DNA of 64,000 nt from Hyphomicrobium sp. (lineage in GTDB: Bacteria > Pseudomonadota > Alphaproteobacteria > Rhizobiales > Hyphomicrobiaceae): contig NZ_RXIZ01000004.1 in assembly GCF_003987855.1 (NCBI RefSeq), forward strand, positions 8,220 to 72,219, in the 5' to 3' direction. Positions 5,474 through 46,618 of the stretch are shown here, in pieces; the first letter of the stretch is position 1; every line of letters starts with the position of its first letter. Both the position numbers and the translations under genes were made by a program. The notes under the pieces are model-generated. The model was not told the origin of the DNA. It worked only from the letters and a program-made list of their open reading frames with translations, and searched no databases.

Positions 5474-8065
5474 TCAAGCCGCAGCTTTGATCGGCCAGCC
5501 GTTGATCGTCAGCGAGCCATCGCGCACCGACACGCGCACCGTATCGCCATCCTTCACGCCGCCCGCGAGGATCTGCTCGGCGAGCGGGTCCTGCACGTTG
5601 CGCTGGATGACGCGCTTCAACGGCCGCGCACCGTACGCGGGATCGTAACCGCGATTGGCGAGCCAGCTCTTCGCCTGCTCATCAAGCTCGATCGTGATCT
5701 TGCGATCGGCCAGAAGCTTTTGCAGGCGCGCCATCTGGATATCGACGATCTTCGTCATGTCCGCGCGCTGCAAGCGGTGGAACAGGATGATGTCGTCGAG
5801 ACGGTTGAGGAACTCCGGCCGGAAGCGTGAGCGCACTTCCGCCATGACTTCCTCGCGCACGGCTTCCGTTTCCTCGCCTTCCTTCTGCTCGACGAGGTAC
5901 TGCGCACCGATGTTCGACGTCAGCACGATCAGCGTGTTCTTGAAGTCGACGGTGCGGCCCTGGCCGTCGGTCAGGCGACCGTCGTCCAAGACTTGCAGCA
6001 ACACGTTGAACACGTCCGGATGCGCCTTCTCGATCTCATCGAACAGGATGATCTGATACGGACGACGACGCACAGCTTCCGTCAGCACGCCGCCTTCCTC
6101 ATAGCCGACGTAGCCCGGAGGCGCGCCGATGAGACGAGCGACCGAGTGCTTCTCCATGAACTCCGACATGTCGATGCGCACGAGCGCGGTGTCGTCGTCG
6201 AAGAGATAGCCCGCGAGCGCCTTCGTCAGCTCGGTCTTGCCGACGCCGGTGGGCCCTAAGAACATGAACGAGCCGATCGGCCGGTTCGGGTCCTGCAGGC
6301 CGGCGCGCGCGCGGCGGACGGCCGTCGAGACTGCGATGACCGCCTCCTTCTGACCGATGACGCGCTTGCCCAGCGCATCCTCCATCTTGAGAAGCTTGTC
6401 GCGCTCGCCCTCGAGCATCTTGTCGACGGGAACGCCCGTCCAGCGCGACACGACGGCCGCGATCTGATCCGGCGTCACCGCTTCCTCGACGAGAGCGCCC
6501 TTGCCCTCCTGGGCTTCGACGTCGGCGAGCTTCTTCTCGAGTTCGGGGATCTTGCCGTAGCGGAGTTCGCCCGCGCGTGCGAGATCGCCCCGGCGCTGCG
6601 CCTGTTCGAGCGCGTTGCGCAGGTTGTCGAGCTCTTCCTTGATCTTCTGCGCCGACCCGAGCTTTTCCTTCTCGGCCTGCCAGCGCGCCGTCATCGCCTC
6701 GGACTTCTCTTGCAAGTCCGCGATCGATTTCTCGAGCCGCGCCAGGCGATCCTTGGAGGCCGCGTCGGTTTCCTTCTTCAGGGCTTCGCGCTCGATCATC
6801 ATCTGCATGAGATCGCGATCGATGGCATCGAGCTCTTCGGGCTTGGAATCGACCTGCATGCGCAGCCGCGATGCCGCCTCGTCGACGAGGTCGATCGCCT
6901 TGTCGGGGAGGAAGCGATCCGTGATGTAGCGGTTCGAAAGCGTCGCCGCGGACACGAGCGCGCTGTCGGTGATGCGCACGCCGTGATGCAGCTCATACTT
7001 CTCTTTCAAGCCGCGCAGGATCGAAATGGTATCTTCGACGTTCGGCTCGTTGACGAAGATCGGCTGGAACCGGCGAGCGAGCGCCGCATCCTTCTCGATG
7101 TGCTTGCGATACTCATCGAGCGTGGTTGCGCCGACGCAGTGCAGCTCGCCGCGCGCGAGCGCCGGCTTCAACAGGTTGCCCGCATCCATCGAACCTTCGG
7201 TCTTGCCCGCGCCGACGATCGTGTGCAGCTCGTCAATGAAAAGGATGATGTCGCCCTCGGCTTCGACCTCGGACAACACGGCCTTCAGACGCTCTTCGAA
7301 CTCGCCGCGATACTTCGCGCCCGCAATGAGTGCACCCATGTCGAGCGACAGCAGCTTCTTGTGCTTCAGGCTTTCCGGCACGTCGCCCTTGACGATGCGC
7401 AAGGCGAGGCCTTCCGCGATCGCCGTCTTGCCGACGCCCGGTTCACCGATCAGCACGGGATTGTTCTTCGTCCGCCGCGACAGCACCTGGATGGTGCGGC
7501 GGATCTCTTCATCGCGGCCGATGACCGGATCGAGCTTGCCGCTGCCAGCCGCTTCCGTGAGGTCACGCGCATAGCGCTTCAGCGCGTCATACGCCTGCTC
7601 GGCGTTGGCGTTGTCGGCGGTACGGCCCTTGCGGATGTCGTTGATGGCGGCGTTGATCTTGTCCGGCGTCACGCCCGCATCGCGCAAGATCTTGCCCGCG
7701 TCCGTCGCGGTGTCGAGCGCCAGAGCAAGCAGCAGCCGCTCGGCGGTGACGAACTTGTCGCTCGCCTTGTCGGCGAGCTTCTCGACGGAATCGAACAGGC
7801 GCGCCAGTTCGGGCGAGACGTAGACCTGCCCCGATCCTCCGGTAACCTTCGGCTTCTTGGCTAGGTTCGCCTCGACCGCCTTCAGGGCCGCGCGGGAATC
7901 CCCGCCGGCCTTCTGGATCAGGCCGCTCGCGAGCCCTTCCGGGTCGTCGAGCAGGATCTTTAAAAGGTGCTCAGGCGTGACCTGTTGATTGTTTTCGCGG
8001 AGCGCCAGCGATTGGGCCGATTGAATGAAGCCCTTGGCGCGGTCCGTGTAGCGTTCGAAATTCAT
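5474..8065 (-). CDS. clpB: ATP-dependent chaperone ClpB
   Basis: An 863-residue Hsp100 disaggregase that threads aggregated proteins together with DnaK. All domains are visible: N-domain (residues 1-145), first ATPase domain with Walker A GEPGVGKT near 205 and Walker [10 protein letters not shown], the coiled M-domain (~410-520, charged Glu/Lys/Arg repeats), and the second ATPase domain with GPTGVGKT near 605 and [14 protein letters not shown]. The start [13 protein letters not shown] is preferred to an upstream in-frame ATG because GGAGAA lies just before it and it matches the family N-terminus. A sigma-32-like promoter lies ~130 bases upstream, fitting heat induction. The length is normal and the ATPase motifs are intact. 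Confidence 0.98.
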
Positions 8066-39767: not shown

Positions 39768-40484
39768 TCAGCGGGTGCTTGGAACAAGCTTGCCTGCAAA
39801 AACGACAGGTCCCGTCGGCTTGCCGGTCGGCGACCCGCCCTCAGGCTCGAGACTGACGGCGTAGGTTGCGCTCGCTATGACGTCAGGCTTGTAAGCCGCG
39901 AGCGTTGGCCGCGTCGCAGCCGTTCCCTGGTCGATCACGCCGAGCGACTTGGGCGCGCCGAGGCTATCCTGCACGATCCAGAGTTCATAACTCTTGCCCT
40001 CCGGATGTTTTGCCGCGATCGGCTGCACGGTCATCAGCCGATCATCGATATTGACGGTGACGAGAAATGCGGGCGATGCCGCATCCTTCTGAAGCACGGC
40101 AACAAGATTTGGCTGCTTTGATCTTGATGCGAACTGACCAACGCCGACAAAAAGAACGAGCCCAGCCGCGATCGCCGATGCGGCGAGTGCCGTTGCGCGC
40201 CAGAATTCAAGCCTTCGACGCAGCTGAACGACCGTCGATCCGTCGAGCGAAGATTCTGATTGCCCGTCAATCCGCCGAAGAAGCTTCGCAAACAACTCAT
40301 CTCGGGGCGGCGTTTCTCCAACGATCTCATTGAGCGGCGATAGCCTGCGCTCCCAAGCAAGAATGGCGCTGTCGAGGTCCGGCTCACGCAAGCGCCGTGC
40401 GGCGACCATTGTTCTCTCTTGAGCATCGAGAGTTCCGATGACGAATTCACCGGCAAGAGCATCGATATCTTCGTTGTCCGTCAT
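39768..40484 (-). CDS. Anti-sigma factor, RskA type
   Basis: A 238-residue membrane protein. The cytoplasmic N-terminal domain (DIDALAGEFVIGTLDAQER, then ERRLSPLNEIVGETPPRDEL) is the RskA-type anti-sigma fold; one membrane helix (~105-125, ALAASAIAAGLVLFVGVGQF) follows, then a periplasmic domain with the family phrase HPEGKSYELWIVQDSLGAPKSLG. Its ATG overlaps the sigma stop (ATGA), so it is made with its partner. It would release the sigma factor upon membrane or redox stress. Confidence 0.93.
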   Translation of the reverse strand: MTDNEDIDALAGEFVIGTLDAQERTMVAARRLREPDLDSAILAWERRLSPLNEIVGETPPRDELFAKLLRRIDGQSESSLDGSTVVQLRRRLEFWRATALAASAIAAGLVLFVGVGQFASRSKQPNLVAVLQKDAASPAFLVTVNIDDRLMTVQPIAAKHPEGKSYELWIVQDSLGAPKSLGVIDQGTAATRPTLAAYKPDVIASATYAVSLEPEGGSPTGKPTGPVVFAGKLVPSTR

Positions 40485-41020
40485 GACAGACAACCTTTCA
40501 GCTGAACAAGCGAACGCCGAAGCCACGTCTTGATCGTGTTCACGGGCTGAGCATATGACGCGGCCAGCTCATCGCGCGTCATTCCTTCGCAATAGGCCTG
40601 AACGATCATGCTGCGGCGATCGGGTTGAAGCCGATCGAGGCACTCCCAAAGCTTTTTGCCGTCTTCGGAGCGCAGCAGAACCGCGAGCCCGGTTTCCTCC
40701 TCTGAAGGCATATCCTGAACTTCCGGATGATCCTCGATCGAGTCGGGTGTTCTTCGACGCACCTCGTCGAGCGCGCGGTTTCGTGCGATCGCCGCCATCC
40801 ACGAGATGGGCGATGCCTTGTCAGCCCTGTAATCCCCCGCGCGTTCCCAAATCCTCACGTAGACCTCTTGAAGTACCTCGTCAGCAAGATCTCTGCGTCG
40901 CAAGATACGAAGTACGATTCCGTAAAGTTTCGCGCTCGTCGCCCGGTAAAGACCAGCAAAGGCTTGCCGATCCTTGCGGGCAACAAGTTGTAGAAGCGCT
41001 GTTATGTCTTCGGCAGCCAT
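40481..41020 (-). CDS. ECF RNA polymerase sigma factor, SigK-like
   Basis: A 179-residue extracytoplasmic function sigma factor. Region 2 (~10-85, AFAGLYRATSAKLYGIVLRI, DLADEVLQEVYVRIWERAGD, WMAAIARNRALDEVR) binds the -10 element; region 4 (~125-175, LDRLQPDRRSMIVQAYCEGM, VNTIKTWLRRSLVQL) binds the -35. A start at MAAEDITALLQLV is favoured over a longer N-terminal frame. It shares an operon with its anti-sigma factor and is likely autoregulated. Confidence 0.95.
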   Translation of the reverse strand: MAAEDITALLQLVARKDRQAFAGLYRATSAKLYGIVLRILRRRDLADEVLQEVYVRIWERAGDYRADKASPISWMAAIARNRALDEVRRRTPDSIEDHPEVQDMPSEEETGLAVLLRSEDGKKLWECLDRLQPDRRSMIVQAYCEGMTRDELAASYAQPVNTIKTWLRRSLVQLKGCLS

Positions 41021-41150
41021 CGTTGTCGATCTTCTATCGCCATGGTCGGGAGGCTGAGTGCTTGGTTTCCTACCAGCTTCCACCTTATGTACGTTAGCCC
41101 GACGTTCCGCGGATGACTCCATGCCGGCGTCCCGAGATGGCGAATGACGT

Positions 41151-41830: not shown

Positions 41831-42568
41831 CTACCCGGTTTTCAGACCGGTTTCGGTCTTCAGAAACTCTGTGAGATCGCGCGTCATATAATGAACGTGC
41901 TCCGGCAGCTCGCGCCATTCGCGAACTTTGAGTTGTGCGGGATGATCGATGTAATCGGAATGCACAAGAACGGTCGTCATTCCAAGAGATGAGGCTGGCT
42001 CGAGATTGTGCGGCATGTCCTCGAACATCGCTGCCCGCGCCGAAGTCACGGCATGCAGCTTGAGCATGCGGTCGAAAGCTTCGCGCTCAGGCTTCGGAAT
42101 GAACTCGAGTGCCGCGATATCGCAGATGTCTTCGAACAGGTGCAGCACCCCGAGCTTTCGCGCAACGTTCTCCGCGTGACGCCGCGATCCGTTCGTGAAT
42201 ATCAGCCGCCGCCCGGGAAGAGCCTCGATCGCCGCTGCGAGATCCGGCAGCTCGGGCACGACGGAGAGATCGATGTCGTGCACATATTCGAGAAACGGAC
42301 CCGGCGGCAGCTTGTGGACTTTCATCAGTCCAGCAAGCGTTGTACCGAACTGACGATAGTACGCTTTCTGCAGATGACGCGCGTGCTCGCGAGGCACGCC
42401 CAGGGACTTGGCGATATACGCGCTCATCCGCTGGTCGACTTGCGAGAAGAGATCGCAAGACGCGGGGTAGAGCGTGTTGTCGAGGTCGAAGACCCACACC
42501 TCAACCTGACCGAAGCCGCGCCGCGCGGCCGCGCTCGGCAAATTCGCTGCTTTCGCCGCGATCGCCAT
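41831..42568 (-). CDS. Pyrimidine 5'-nucleotidase-like HAD hydrolase
   Basis: A 245-residue HAD phosphatase. Motif I VWVFDLDNTLYP (nucleophile and general acid Asp), motif II LIFTNGSRRHAENVARKLG, motif III Lys in EFIPKPEREAFDRML, motif IV AAMFEDMPHNLEPAS. The Pro-Tyr after LDNTL and the helical cap are those of the SDT1/pyrimidine nucleotidase branch. Its ATG overlaps the argB stop (TGATG). Confidence 0.92.
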   Translation of the reverse strand: MAIAAKAANLPSAAARRGFGQVEVWVFDLDNTLYPASCDLFSQVDQRMSAYIAKSLGVPREHARHLQKAYYRQFGTTLAGLMKVHKLPPGPFLEYVHDIDLSVVPELPDLAAAIEALPGRRLIFTNGSRRHAENVARKLGVLHLFEDICDIAALEFIPKPEREAFDRMLKLHAVTSARAAMFEDMPHNLEPASSLGMTTVLVHSDYIDHPAQLKVREWRELPEHVHYMTRDLTEFLKTETGLKTG

Positions 42569-43521
42569 CAGGTCTTGCCCTTCTTCCGATCCGGCCGTTT
42601 GACCAGCGTGCCGACGCCGTGCTCGGTAAAGAGTTCGAGCAGCACGCAATGGGGCACGCGTCCGTCGATAACGACAACGCCTTCGACGCCCGCCTCAACG
42701 ACTTCAATGCAGCCCTCGATTTTCGGGATCATGCCGCCTGAGATCGCGCCGCTTTTGATCATCGCCCGCGCTTCATCGATCGTAAGGCTCGGAATGAGCT
42801 GTTTGTTGCCATCGAGCACGCCGGTGACATCCGTGAGCAGCAGCAGGCGCTTGGCCTGCATGCGCGCCGCCAGCGCCGAGGCAAAGGTGTCGGCATTGAC
42901 GTTGAGCGTCTCGCCCTCGCGGCTGATCGCGACGGGCGCGATCACCGGAATGAGATCCGATTTGGAAATCACCTCGACAATGTGCGGATTGATCTCGATC
43001 GGATCCCCGACATAGCCAATGTCGACGTTCGTCATGACGTTCGACTGCGGGTCCGGCATCTCCGTGATCTTTTTAGCGATCATGAGATTGGCATCTTTGC
43101 CCGAAATGCCGACCGCCTTGCCGCCCTGCTGGTTGATCGCCGACACGATCTCCTTGTTGATCTTGCCGGCGAGCACCATTTCGACGACCTCGACCGTCGC
43201 CTTGTCGGTCACGCGCAAGCCGTGCACGAAGTCTGATTTGATGGCGAGCTTCTGAAGCATGTTGCCGATCTGCGGTCCCCCGCCGTGCACGACGATCGGA
43301 TTTATGCCCGATTGCTTCAGATAGACGATATCCTGGGCGAAGGCGCGGAACAGAGCTTCATCGCCCATAGCGTTGCCGCCGAATTTGATTACGACGTTCT
43401 TCTCGTCATAATCGATAAGATGCGGGATGGCTTCGGCAAGGATACGCGCCTGCTGATGCGCCGTAAGCGGAGCTTCGACGGGCGCGGCGGCAACTGTTTC
43501 CGAATGGCTTTTTGCTGACAT
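42568..43521 (-). CDS. argB: Acetylglutamate kinase
   Basis: A 317-residue enzyme for the second step of arginine synthesis. Signatures: NVVIKFGGNAMGDE, VVHGGGPQIGNMLQKL, VHGLRVTDKATVEVVEMVLAG, LLLLTDVTGVLDGN, GMIPKIEGCIEVVEAGVEGV. A N-terminal ~40-residue helix, as in the hexameric arginine-sensitive type, is present. Family and role are firm. Confidence 0.98.
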   Translation of the reverse strand: MSAKSHSETVAAAPVEAPLTAHQQARILAEAIPHLIDYDEKNVVIKFGGNAMGDEALFRAFAQDIVYLKQSGINPIVVHGGGPQIGNMLQKLAIKSDFVHGLRVTDKATVEVVEMVLAGKINKEIVSAINQQGGKAVGISGKDANLMIAKKITEMPDPQSNVMTNVDIGYVGDPIEINPHIVEVISKSDLIPVIAPVAISREGETLNVNADTFASALAARMQAKRLLLLTDVTGVLDGNKQLIPSLTIDEARAMIKSGAISGGMIPKIEGCIEVVEAGVEGVVVIDGRVPHCVLLELFTEHGVGTLVKRPDRKKGKT

Positions 43522-43808
43522 CTCGAAGCTCCCCCTATATCACAATTCGGCGCGCCGGCGGGGAGCCGGGCGTCTGGTCGCGGTCTTATAACCTCTCGGT
43601 GGACGGCCTCAATCGATTTAACCGGCGCGATGCCCGGCGGGCGGTCCTGACGCAGGCGTTTGTGGGGCTTCTGGGGACGAAAGACGTTCCCAGCCTGCCA
43701 ACAGCCGTGCCATTGCTATAACCTTGCCATCCGCGCGTGTTTTCGACACGCTATCGCAATGAGTCTTGGCCAGTCTTGCCCGTCTTGGCCTTCGTTTCAG
43801 GAGATCCC

Positions 43809-45947
43809 GTGGGCGTGACGGCAACAGACATTGCGCAGATTCCGATGTCGCCCGAGTTGGCGGGAACATTGGCTCGCGGCGCTGAATTTGCCGGCGAGAC
43901 CGGGAGTTCAGAGGTGTCGCTTGAGCATTTGCTCGCCGCCTTGTGTGACGATCCCGATGCCCTCGCCGTGCTCGATGCGAGCCATATCAGCAGCGAGCGA
44001 ATCAAAGGCGACGCAATTCATCGCGTTCTGCAAACGGCTGAGCAAGACCCGGTCCCACAGGATTCTCTTGGCGTATCGGCTGAGGTGCGTCGCATCCTTG
44101 AAGCGGCGGCAGCGGCGGCGCGGGGCAGCCGCCGGCGCGATATCAACGGCGCAATTGTGCTTGCCGCGATCGTTGGCGACGCCAGAAGCGTCGCGGCCGA
44201 GATCCTGGAAACCCACGGGCTGACATTCGAGAACGCCATCCGCGCCCTGCAGCAAGCCCTCCAGCCGCCACGCGAAGCTGCACCTCCGCAACAGCCGCAG
44301 CCGCCGCTGGCCGACGACGTTCTGGCGCGGGCGCGCGAGCGCGTCCAATCGCGCTCCGCTCCCTCCCTGCGCGATATAATGAAGGATATGCCGCGGCCGG
44401 CGCCAATGATGCCGCCGCACGAGCCAATCCCCGAACCGCCGATGCCACAACCACCGGCAGCGGAGCAATATTCACCTCATGACCAGTCATCCGCCGATCC
44501 ATCGTTCGCCGCTACGGATGCCGAGGATCGCGCGGCGGACCGACACAAGCAGCCCGATCACCAAATTCCGGACATGAACACGGCCCCATCTTTTGAGCCG
44601 ACATTCGGTGGTGGTCCGATCGGTCCGCCTGCGCCCGCCCCCACGTCACTCGACATCGGTGGGACCTCGCGGGAGGAAAACGCCGTCCCATCAAAAGCAG
44701 AACCGCGAACCGAACCCCGGCGATCGCCGTTCGCCGCCAGCCCCGTTCCGGGTTCCCACGACCAATCCCCGCCCCAGCCCGGACCTCATAACCCGAGATC
44801 GCGCGCGCATTCCGGTCCTGCGCCCCGGCCTGATCCGTCCTTCGGCGCTCCGCGTCCAGGACCGAATACGAGCCCAAGCGTCGCGCCTCCTGGGCAGAGT
44901 GGCTATCCGCCCGAGCCTTCGCTGCCGCTTCCGGCGCGTCCCACAAGCCCGCCTCAGGCGGGTCCAGAAGGCGGCCAGGACGGTCCATCTTTCCAGCTGC
45001 CGTTCCCGTCGGCTCCGCATCAAGCCGCCCCGAATCCCGCAGCGGTATCGGCCCCTGCACCGCCGCCGGAAATTTTCAGTCTGCCGCCGCGGCCACAGCC
45101 TTCCCGCGTCCAGCCTCCGCCGATCCCAGCAGGACCGCGACCGGGCGCTTCCTCTCCGGCCCCCGCTCCGCAGGGACAGCCGGGCCGATACCCTCCCCAA
45201 GGGCCAAGCTTTTCGACCGGCGCGCCAGTGCCCGGACCCAACCTCGGGGCGCCGGGCCCGCAGCCGAATCTCGGCCAAGGTACCGTCTTTCGTCCTGATG
45301 CCCTTTCCGGAGCTCCGGCGGGACAGCAGCCCACGGCCAAAGCACCGCCTCAGCCTCAAGCTCAAGGCCAGCCGCGCCGGGCGGCGAAGCGCAGCAAGGG
45401 CGCACACGTCGAAACGGGCCAGCTTGCCGAGAACATCCCGCGCACGATGCGCGTCGGAAAAACCGTGCGCGCCGAGGTACGTATCGCGAAGGCATCGATA
45501 AACGCGCTGACGGAAGGCCTCGATGGCGGCGGTAAAGTCTGGCAGCACGCCGTCGCCGTCACCAAGGCGATGTCGGTCCGCCTGCGCGCGCCCGATGGCG
45601 GCTTCTTCATCGAATCGGCTTCCCCAGAGACGCAATGGATCGAGGGCAATCTCGGTTATGCGAGCGACGACTTCGCGAGTTGGCGGTTCCTGATCACGCC
45701 GCAGGCGCGTGGCTGGTCGGATCTTCAGATCATCGTTTCAGCGCGAACTGTCGGAACAGACGGCGTCGCGGCCGAAACGGCGCTTCCCGATCAGATCGTC
45801 GAGGTCAAAGTCCGCACCAACATCGGCAGGACGGTGGCGCGCATTCTAGGTTGGACCATCGCTGCGGTGATCGGCGGCGCACTCGCAACGTTCGGAGAGA
45901 CGGGAATGACCGTCGGTACGGCACTTCTAAAGAAGTTCGGTCACTAG
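43809..45947 (+). CDS. Clp-N domain / Pro-rich linker / membrane-tail protein
   Basis: About 712 residues and no ATPase motif. Residues ~10-150 form a double Clp N-repeat (ELAGTLARGAEFAGETGSSE, VSLEHLLAALCDDPDALAVL, then SAEVRRILEAAAAAARGSRR and INGAIVLAAIVGD), as in ClpA/B N-domains that bind substrates or adaptors. A ~370-residue Pro/Gly/Gln-rich disordered stretch follows. The C-terminal ~150 residues look beta-rich (RVGKTVRAEVRIAKASINAL, WRFLITPQARGWSDLQIIVS) and end in a helix (AVIGGALATFGETGMTVG) that may enter the membrane. AGGAGA lies ahead of a GTG at 43809. It is the only plus-strand gene between argB and engB. I recognise no named family. Confidence 0.85.
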   Translation: MGVTATDIAQIPMSPELAGTLARGAEFAGETGSSEVSLEHLLAALCDDPDALAVLDASHISSERIKGDAIHRVLQTAEQDPVPQDSLGVSAEVRRILEAAAAAARGSRRRDINGAIVLAAIVGDARSVAAEILETHGLTFENAIRALQQALQPPREAAPPQQPQPPLADDVLARARERVQSRSAPSLRDIMKDMPRPAPMMPPHEPIPEPPMPQPPAAEQYSPHDQSSADPSFAATDAEDRAADRHKQPDHQIPDMNTAPSFEPTFGGGPIGPPAPAPTSLDIGGTSREENAVPSKAEPRTEPRRSPFAASPVPGSHDQSPPQPGPHNPRSRAHSGPAPRPDPSFGAPRPGPNTSPSVAPPGQSGYPPEPSLPLPARPTSPPQAGPEGGQDGPSFQLPFPSAPHQAAPNPAAVSAPAPPPEIFSLPPRPQPSRVQPPPIPAGPRPGASSPAPAPQGQPGRYPPQGPSFSTGAPVPGPNLGAPGPQPNLGQGTVFRPDALSGAPAGQQPTAKAPPQPQAQGQPRRAAKRSKGAHVETGQLAENIPRTMRVGKTVRAEVRIAKASINALTEGLDGGGKVWQHAVAVTKAMSVRLRAPDGGFFIESASPETQWIEGNLGYASDDFASWRFLITPQARGWSDLQIIVSARTVGTDGVAAETALPDQIVEVKVRTNIGRTVARILGWTIAAVIGGALATFGETGMTVGTALLKKFGH

Positions 45948-45958
45948 GCGCGTCAGCC

Positions 45959-46618
45959 TTAGCCGCCGTGCGCTTCGAGAAGCTGTGCGATCGTTCCCCG
46001 CAGCTCTTCAAAGCCCAGCGCCTTCTCCGACGACGTCTGAATGATGTGCGGAAACGCGGCGGGATGTTTCGCGAGCGCCTTCTGCGTGCTGTCCGCGACT
46101 TTCTCAAGATCAGTCTTGCTGATTTTGTCGACCTTGGTCAGGACCACCTGATAAGAGACCGCCGCGCCGTCGAGCAGCGCCATGATCTCGTCGTCGACGG
46201 GCTTCAGCCCATGGCGCGCGTCGACCAGTAGAAACACACGCAACAACGTTCGCCGTCCGGCCAGGTAGGCCCGGAGAACTTTGTTCCACGCGGCAACCTT
46301 GTCCTTCGGCGCCTCGGCAAATCCGTACCCTGGCATGTCGACCAGATAGAGATCGTGATTGGGCTCGGTGAAGAAGTTGAGCTCTTGCGTCCGCCCCGGC
46401 GTATTCGACGCGCGGGCAAGACGCAGCTGTCCTACGAGCGCGTTGATGAGACTTGACTTGCCGACGTTGGAGCGCCCCGCGAACGCAATCTCGGGCCGGT
46501 CGTCGGGAGGCAGATGATCGAGATCCGGCGTGCCGCGCGAAAACGTCCAGGCGCGCGTGAAGAGACGGCGACCGTCCTCGATCTCTTCAGCCGATAGCGT
46601 CCGCTCGTCGCTCGTCAT
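45959..46618 (-). CDS. engB: Ribosome biogenesis GTPase EngB (YihA)
   Basis: A 219-residue GTPase. G1 [19 protein letters not shown]2 RTQELNFF (Thr), G3 [12 protein letters not shown]4 [10 protein letters not shown]. It helps assemble the 50S subunit. It lies 52 bases after yidC with a hairpin between them. It converges with the Clp-N protein gene, 11 bases apart. Confidence 0.97.

Follow-up and report, generated by a model that had tools for sequence, protein, structure and literature searches.

The N-terminal domain (Clp_N) of HSP100/Clp ATPases such as ClpA is a substrate-selecting head, and mycobacteria possess stand-alone Clp_N proteins that are devoid of the ATPase and serve as decoys. 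ClpN repeats outside the Clp ATPases are also described from fusions to vWA proteins in FtsH ternary systems (PMC7159879). In PopZ the N-terminal helix is the client-binding part, and the partners of this protein include ChpT, ZitP, ParB as well as the ClpXP adaptors CpdR and RcdA (PMC9926476; PMC9512792). SpmX of Caulobacter combines a repurposed lysozyme fold with a Pro-rich arm carrying an isolated predicted helix and with a C-terminal membrane tether, and it bridges PopZ and DivJ (PMC5347347). Here, we describe a protein of Hyphomicrobium sp. in which a ClpA-type N-domain is placed on a long arm. Its gene is located on a stretch of 64,000 nucleotides (NCBI RefSeq assembly GCF_003987855.1, contig NZ_RXIZ01000004.1, positions 8,220 to 72,219 of the forward strand) that is called the window in the following.

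The protein contains a double Clp_N domain, a Pro-rich linker with one conserved helix, a C-terminal domain predicted to be rich in β-strands and a putative tail helix (Table 1). We tentatively regard it as a tail-anchored recruitment scaffold of the inner membrane that carries a helix for client capture besides a repurposed Clp head, a reading that is possible but falls somewhat short of probable. It is founded on the domain order, conservation, selection, synteny and helix motif that are observed in a whole family of such proteins. In a scan of public genome contigs 66 related loci were found, and in 60 of them a clear N-domain (E ≤ 1e-3) and the C-domain are present in one frame, hence N-domain, linker and C-domain stay together across homologues. 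Purifying selection acts on the N-domain and the C-domain alike. The mean column identity amounts to 64% in the C-domain (61 sequences) and to 59% in the N-domain (48 rows), and a widened pattern of the linker motif, set after the motif had been seen, is present in 53 of 60 linkers and in none of 645 other open reading frames (ORFs; at least 200 residues, same loci). The reading further draws on the weight-matrix scores of PopZ-like proteins and of member L097 (L and G numbers denote loci and genomes, respectively), on the match of member L115 to PopZ, on the published client binding by the PopZ helix and the listing of CpdR and RcdA as PopZ partners, with SpmX as precedent, and on the own genome. 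The latter holds clpA with adjoining clpS, two PopZ-like genes and a gene for a DUF1465 protein, which we take to belong to the RcdA family.

The modules of this protein are known and their combination is new. As far as literature searches reach the family is undescribed, in accordance with the preliminary description of the locus, which knew no name for this design. In the available text of the literature on Clp N-domain proteins, DUF7363 and PopZ in Hyphomicrobium no description of the family was found, and in a paper on Rhodomicrobium bactofilin PopZ appears solely in the reference list and Clp is absent.

Among 249 genomes sampled from the order (Rhizobiales) the C-domain was detected in 41, and a search with the N-domain matched 238, mostly in frames of ClpA length. 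Among the matches listed, N-domain and C-domain share a frame in at least 28 of the 41 genomes; beyond these 28, Pfam reveals Clp_N in the C-domain frame of G030 and G008. The family gene of G016 is split over two contigs, and G048, with no N-domain match, has a C-domain frame of 243 residues on a contig of 4.7 kb. A scan of 398 genomes of the phylum with the C-domain profile gave five with a match (the own genome, two others of the order and two weak ones), and a scan of 385 genomes of the class gave two (the own and a weak one), whereby the first-look filter of both scans scored just 8 or 9 candidates per genome and may miss relatives. By name the 66 loci comprise Hyphomicrobium (32), Filomicrobium (6), Rhodomicrobium (1), Methyloligella (1, L103) and Myxococcales (1), the rest carrying higher names. 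Five of the six loci outside the 60 are situated at contig ends: L051, L064, L079 and L090 run off the edge on their 5' side and L093 starts 16 bases from it. The sixth, L099, has a divergent N-part in which Pfam Clp_N stays below the cut-off. This frame (L099:6291-8717, plus strand), on the contig labelled Myxococcales, exhibits a C-domain with 47% identity, an acidic linker and a very divergent N-part; none of the usual neighbours occurs within 18.7 kb, and transfer or a mislabelled bin may be considered.

The surroundings of the gene are conserved as well. Of the loci with room on the contig, 52 of 55 have a relative of argB within 2.5 kb upstream and 51 of 59 a relative of engB within 2.5 kb downstream, each on the strand opposite to the family gene, and both flank the gene in 41 of 49. 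The gene was initially seen as a plus-strand insertion into a conserved argB–engB block; its position was given correctly, but in relatives the gene is itself a part of this block. In other families of the order, the divergent members L106, L108, L111, L113 and L114 keep the position between engB and argB, and for L105 and L109 no argB was present within the 12 and 9 kb fetched, respectively. Neighbouring ORFs of relocated or divergent members and of L099 and L112, 17 in all, were analysed with Pfam and had no functional clue in common. Ratios of nonsynonymous to synonymous substitution rates (dN/dS) against five close relatives range from 0.06 to 0.15 in the N-domain, from 0.14 to 0.24 in the linker and from 0.05 to 0.13 in the C-domain, all of them rough because dS is near or above saturation. 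Since these values are well below 1, a pseudogene or chance ORF was rejected. An anti-phage defence or conflict system was rejected, too: PADLOC gave no match at E ≤ 0.1, the synteny is steady and the C-domain had no match in plasmid and phage collections at E ≤ 0.01. In this respect the protein differs from the vWA–ClpN proteins, which share with it ClpN repeats outside Clp ATPases but are found in multi-gene conflict systems (PMC7159879).

Concerning the N-domain, Clp_N (PF02861) is found in two stretches with 27 bits at a gathering cut-off of 20.7. With a profile built from 48 N-domains of the family, the N-domain of E. coli ClpA is found at an E-value of 6e-23, ahead of ClpC (1.8e-12) and ClpB (1.4e-8), and from this order the domain can be classified as ClpA-like. 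The ClpA N-domain of E. coli is also the top match of the protein among PDB sequences. The NCBIfam match to ClpA is confined to residues 15–151 (29.5 bits versus a cut-off of 993 bits), and in PHROGs the N-domain only gave a match, namely a family of ATP-dependent proteases (E 8.2e-6). Besides Clp_N nothing was detected by Pfam at E ≤ 1 in the 712-residue protein, AAA+ modules not being found, and a Walker pattern GxxxxGK[ST] occurs nowhere in it. Thus, both the double Clp N-repeat and the missing ATPase of the preliminary description are borne out. In the full-length AlphaFold model (49 sequences, mean predicted local distance difference test (pLDDT) 64.7, predicted template modelling (pTM) score 0.39) 12 of 14 ten-residue blocks between residues 11 and 150 reach a mean pLDDT of at least 90. 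The best Foldseek matches of the model are N-domains of ClpC, ClpB and ClpA; within the best 50 matches the target template modelling (TM) score is 0.75–0.89 for chains consisting of the N-domain only, and it is 0.88 for 1r6o (ClpA). The relatives include stand-alone proteins of the PDB, under the names "ClpC2" (8ad9) and "Clp amino terminal domain protein" (8b9o), which have Clp_N and the absence of a motor in common with the family. Compared to ClpA, the protein shares the double Clp_N fold but has no detected AAA+ modules, has lost the E23 contact discussed below and possesses linker, β-sandwich and tail helix instead. At E ≤ 0.001 Clp_N is present in the own genome solely in ClpA, ClpB and the family protein. 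The ClpB chaperone (frame of 885 residues) is encoded in the same window at a distance of ~36 kb, with its Clp_N pair at about 7631-8017 on the minus strand.

Two side observations concern other Clp_N proteins. Directly downstream of the member in L107 a second Clp_N protein is encoded (L107:6626-8659, plus strand) without Pfam match to an ATPase; its long C-terminal part reads like a coiled coil, and the β-domain was not seen in it. In L104 an ORF of 440 residues (L104:5369-6688, minus strand) contains Clp_N together with a segment of Glyoxalase_8 type and a Lon substrate-binding domain, with no ATPase domain by Pfam at E ≤ 1, and is thus a further case of protease recognition domains fused without a motor.

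The linker, with bounds according to our own cut, comprises 385 residues with 26% Pro, 8% acidic and 8% basic residues. About 370 disordered residues had been claimed for this region, and its Pro-rich nature and low pLDDT (40–59 per block) agree with that, but it is not featureless. Residues 151–180 reach a pLDDT of 59–72, with 72 in block 171–180, and residues 168–181 form the sole sizeable helix of the linker in the full-length model, the other one (191–193) having three residues. Linker length varies between 139 and 520 residues in the family (median 305 over 61 rows, of which two are unsafe) and the sequence is variable outside one island, approximately [ED]-[DE]-[IV]-L-A-x-A-R-E-R-V-Q-S-R in most Hyphomicrobium-type members, which coincides with helix 168–181. 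A narrow pattern of the island was found in 38 of 60 linkers and in none of 30,000 shuffled ones.

This motif, overlooked in the preliminary description, resembles helix 1 of PopZ. The likeness was suspected first and tested afterwards. Near their starts the two PopZ-like genes of the own genome read MEEILASIRKIIA and VEDILASIRTSIA; they are arranged in tandem (L119; G000:C1, about 370567-371743) next to an ORF with the appearance of a valyl-tRNA synthetase. In a weight matrix made from 30 unique linker motifs, with L097 and L101 held out, both PopZ-like proteins (19.5 and 16.8) score above all 920 other ORFs of at least 100 residues (best 15.0), and so does the held-out L097 (22.1). BLOSUM matches above the 99.9% point of shuffles were obtained for 48 of 68 linkers with PopZ2 and for 10 of 68 with PopZ1, and for none with the reversed motif in either case; an ungapped score of at least 28 to PopZ2 is reached by 43 of 60 linkers and by five of 645 ORFs. 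The best BLOSUM scores to PopZ1 belong to L105, L101 and L097. With a motif profile of 23 rows, Caulobacter PopZ (6xry, residues 8–21) ranks first among 177,635 PDB sequences (E 0.51), and residues 7–24 of the same protein are the only PDB match of the L115 motif alone (E 0.42; EPTLEDMLATIRDVIDEE in L115 versus EPTMEEILASIRRIISED in PopZ). As positive control, the PopZ stretch of the own genome finds PopZ in the PDB at E 0.0021. By eye and by BLOSUM L115, L105, L101 and L097 appear to carry the forms nearest to PopZ, others being without the pattern; faint helix-1-like segments in L032, L113 and L114 were too weak and were discounted. We lean towards considering the resemblance meaningful, with moderate support from these sequence comparisons, some controls of which failed (see below). 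As in PopZ, the short helix is located beside a long Pro-rich disordered region; different from PopZ are the added Clp_N, β-domain and tail helix and the lack of a detectable DUF2497.

AlphaFold predicts the C-terminal domain as a β-sandwich followed by a C-terminal helix (pLDDT 74.7, pTM 0.63). A fold search of this region with Foldseek, as had been proposed, gave cohesin, complement, immunoglobulin (Ig)-like and macroglobulin-like sandwiches with query TM scores of 0.26–0.42 in the best 50 matches, so that the predicted fold can be assigned to the Ig-like class at best. No Pfam family reached E 0.06 with the C-domains of 27 members (best 0.069), and PDB sequences gave no match at E ≤ 10. DUF7363 (PF24063) was tried and rejected as identity of the domain with E-values of 0.091 (13.8 bits) and 0.027 (15.5 bits) at a cut-off of 28.3, and hhalign gave a probability of 0.2 against one DUF7363 sequence from a protein read as CHAT-type. 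The domain thus appears as a conserved fold for which our searches found no family name, but it is not peculiar to this architecture. It occurs without Clp_N in a second protein of genome G192 (L110:5311-6261, plus strand) and in L112 (5925-6872, minus strand; genome G313 of the class but outside the order), the latter assigned by comparing profiles on the basis of one sequence alone (probability 94, E 1.4e-7), and accordingly it is a module. These two proteins have 317 and 316 residues and by reading show hydrophobic segments near both ends. In the full-length model the tail helix extends over residues 672–710. Both a β-rich domain and a hydrophobic C-terminal helix had been expected and both are predicted, but the helix is just moderately hydrophobic: its best Kyte–Doolittle window of 19 residues scores 1.61 (61 relatives: 1.03–2.31, median 1.45). 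For this reason the span of the membrane is rated likely and no firmer. Trp and Gly positions of the tail helix are nearly invariant in the alignment of 61 C-domains.

According to the proposed scaffold function, the tail helix would anchor the protein in the inner membrane, leaving nearly all of it in the cytoplasm. The β-sandwich would be located at the membrane, and the arm of 385 residues would carry the N-domain at its far end and the client-capture helix next to it. The N-domain may bind polypeptides or adaptors in the way of other Clp N-domains, without the ability to unfold them, and helix 168–181 may bind partners in the fashion of PopZ helix 1. From these two predicted activities it would follow that the protein gathers other proteins at the membrane or the pole, with Clp substrates or adaptors as the most plausible candidates. 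The same layout of repurposed N-terminal fold, Pro-rich arm with lone helix and C-terminal tether is known from SpmX, which differs in having a lysozyme fold, two transmembrane helices and a charged arm and is likened here by layout, not by sequence (PMC5347347). A more far-reaching and doubtful version sees in the protein a hub anchored in the membrane through which Clp proteolysis is connected to the cell pole, with the ClpA-type head presenting substrates or adaptors and the PopZ-type helix capturing PopZ clients, CpdR and RcdA among them. Bacteria of the Hyphomicrobium type would then possess a second client hub, fixed to the membrane; the links of the protein to ClpAP and to PopZ clients are putative.

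Several points weigh against the scaffold. Its partners and localisation are predicted from sequence and models, and the hydrophobicity of the tail helix is borderline. The linker has 8% acidic residues versus a mean of 29% in the PopZ linker of Caulobacterales (PMC9512792), and DUF2497 (PF10691), the C-terminal self-assembly region of PopZ, was not detected in the protein by Pfam at E ≤ 1. The PopZ likeness itself is a match over 13–20 residues with no single significant E-value. Its linker pattern was absent from the divergent L100, L102, L106, L107, L111, L113 and L114 in the scan with the narrow pattern, the weight matrix gives the held-out L101 14.5 (two background ORFs score at least as high) and L105 9.7, and ungapped BLOSUM to PopZ1 separates poorly, a score of at least 28 being reached by four of 645 ORFs and six of 60 linkers. 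Moreover, the motif profile without L097 and L101 fails to find PopZ in the PDB, and the L105 motif alone finds nothing there. It is therefore a serious possibility, if not quite a probable one, that the linker helix is generic and its likeness to PopZ helix 1 incidental, the rest of the protein being a membrane-anchored Clp_N adaptor. Weak PDB E-values that are inconsistent between motif queries, the background-range scores of L105 and L101 and the missing pattern in several divergent members speak for it. The first places of both own PopZ-like proteins in the weight matrix, the top BLOSUM scores of L105, L101 and L097 to PopZ1 and the L115 motif speak against it.

Two further explanations were considered. 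The freed N-domain could act at the membrane as a Clp adaptor or anti-adaptor trap that binds ClpS with its N-degron cargo, or ClpA substrates, in competition with ClpA, thereby lowering ClpAP activity. An N-domain of ClpA-type and not of ClpB- or ClpC-type, the clpS gene adjoining clpA, and the relationship to 8ad9 and 8b9o with the decoy role of such mycobacterial proteins would be in accordance with this. The contacts of E. coli ClpA to ClpS are given as E23, E28, T81 and R86 in the available text of PMC12493166. The equivalent of E23 is missing in 48 of 48 aligned family N-domains, whereas 43 of the 48 retain E28, 40 have S in place of T81 and 40 retain R86; the own ClpB carries E, S and R at these three positions, so that they are not specific for ClpA. 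A simple ClpS trap is disfavoured by this, the decoy idea of the preliminary description is weakened, and since linker helix, β-domain and tail are left unexplained, we consider the trap quite improbable. Unlikely, albeit less so, is a structural protein of cell envelope or cell shape. Its Clp_N fold would then serve only for contacts between proteins and have no relation to proteolysis, like the lysozyme fold of SpmX (PMC5347347). This explanation would fit the names of 39 of the 66 loci. Hyphomicrobium, Filomicrobium and Rhodomicrobium are budding prosthecate bacteria. Conversely, the N-domain retains a strong similarity to ClpA, and L103 carries the name Methyloligella, a genus that is not known to be prosthecate. 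Among the ideas of recruiter, decoy and adaptor put forward initially, the membrane recruiter appears to fit best; the observation behind them is confirmed and its interpretation partly supported.

Table 1. Features of the family gene and its neighbours (positions in the window; aa, amino acid residues)
Feature	Position	Strand	Basis
Family gene, 712 aa, GTG start at 43809, stop ending at 45947	43809..45947	+	ORF list and translation
ClpA-type double Clp_N domain, aa 11-151	43839..44261	+	Pfam, profile, AlphaFold, Foldseek
Pro-rich linker, aa 152-536, predicted disordered	44262..45416	+	Composition, pLDDT
Conserved linker helix, aa 168-181, with PopZ-helix-1-like motif	44310..44351	+	Pattern and AlphaFold
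C-terminal domain, predicted Ig-like β-sandwich, aa 540-669	45426..45815	+	AlphaFold, Foldseek
Predicted C-terminal hydrophobic helix (putative tail anchor), aa 672-700	45822..45908	+	AlphaFold, hydropathy
argB, divergent neighbour	42568..43521	-	Name from the preliminary description; relatives placed alike
engB, convergent neighbour	45959..46618	-	Name from the preliminary description; relatives placed alike

The GTG start is preceded by AGGAG at 43799-43803 with a spacing of five bases. Further away, at 39768-41122 on the minus strand of the window, an apparent extracytoplasmic function (ECF) sigma factor and anti-sigma pair was noticed by reading of the ORFs.

With this family a substrate-selecting Clp head is encountered as a standing, conserved protein of its own, provided with an arm and a probable membrane anchor, in a clade that is mostly named after budding genera. 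If the PopZ-like helix works as such, proteolysis and cell-pole organisation would meet in one polypeptide. By which factors stalked budding bacteria mark their poles is a question raised for Hyphomonas neptunium in the available text of PMC6650430, and under the same premise the gene described here would be a concrete candidate for such a factor.

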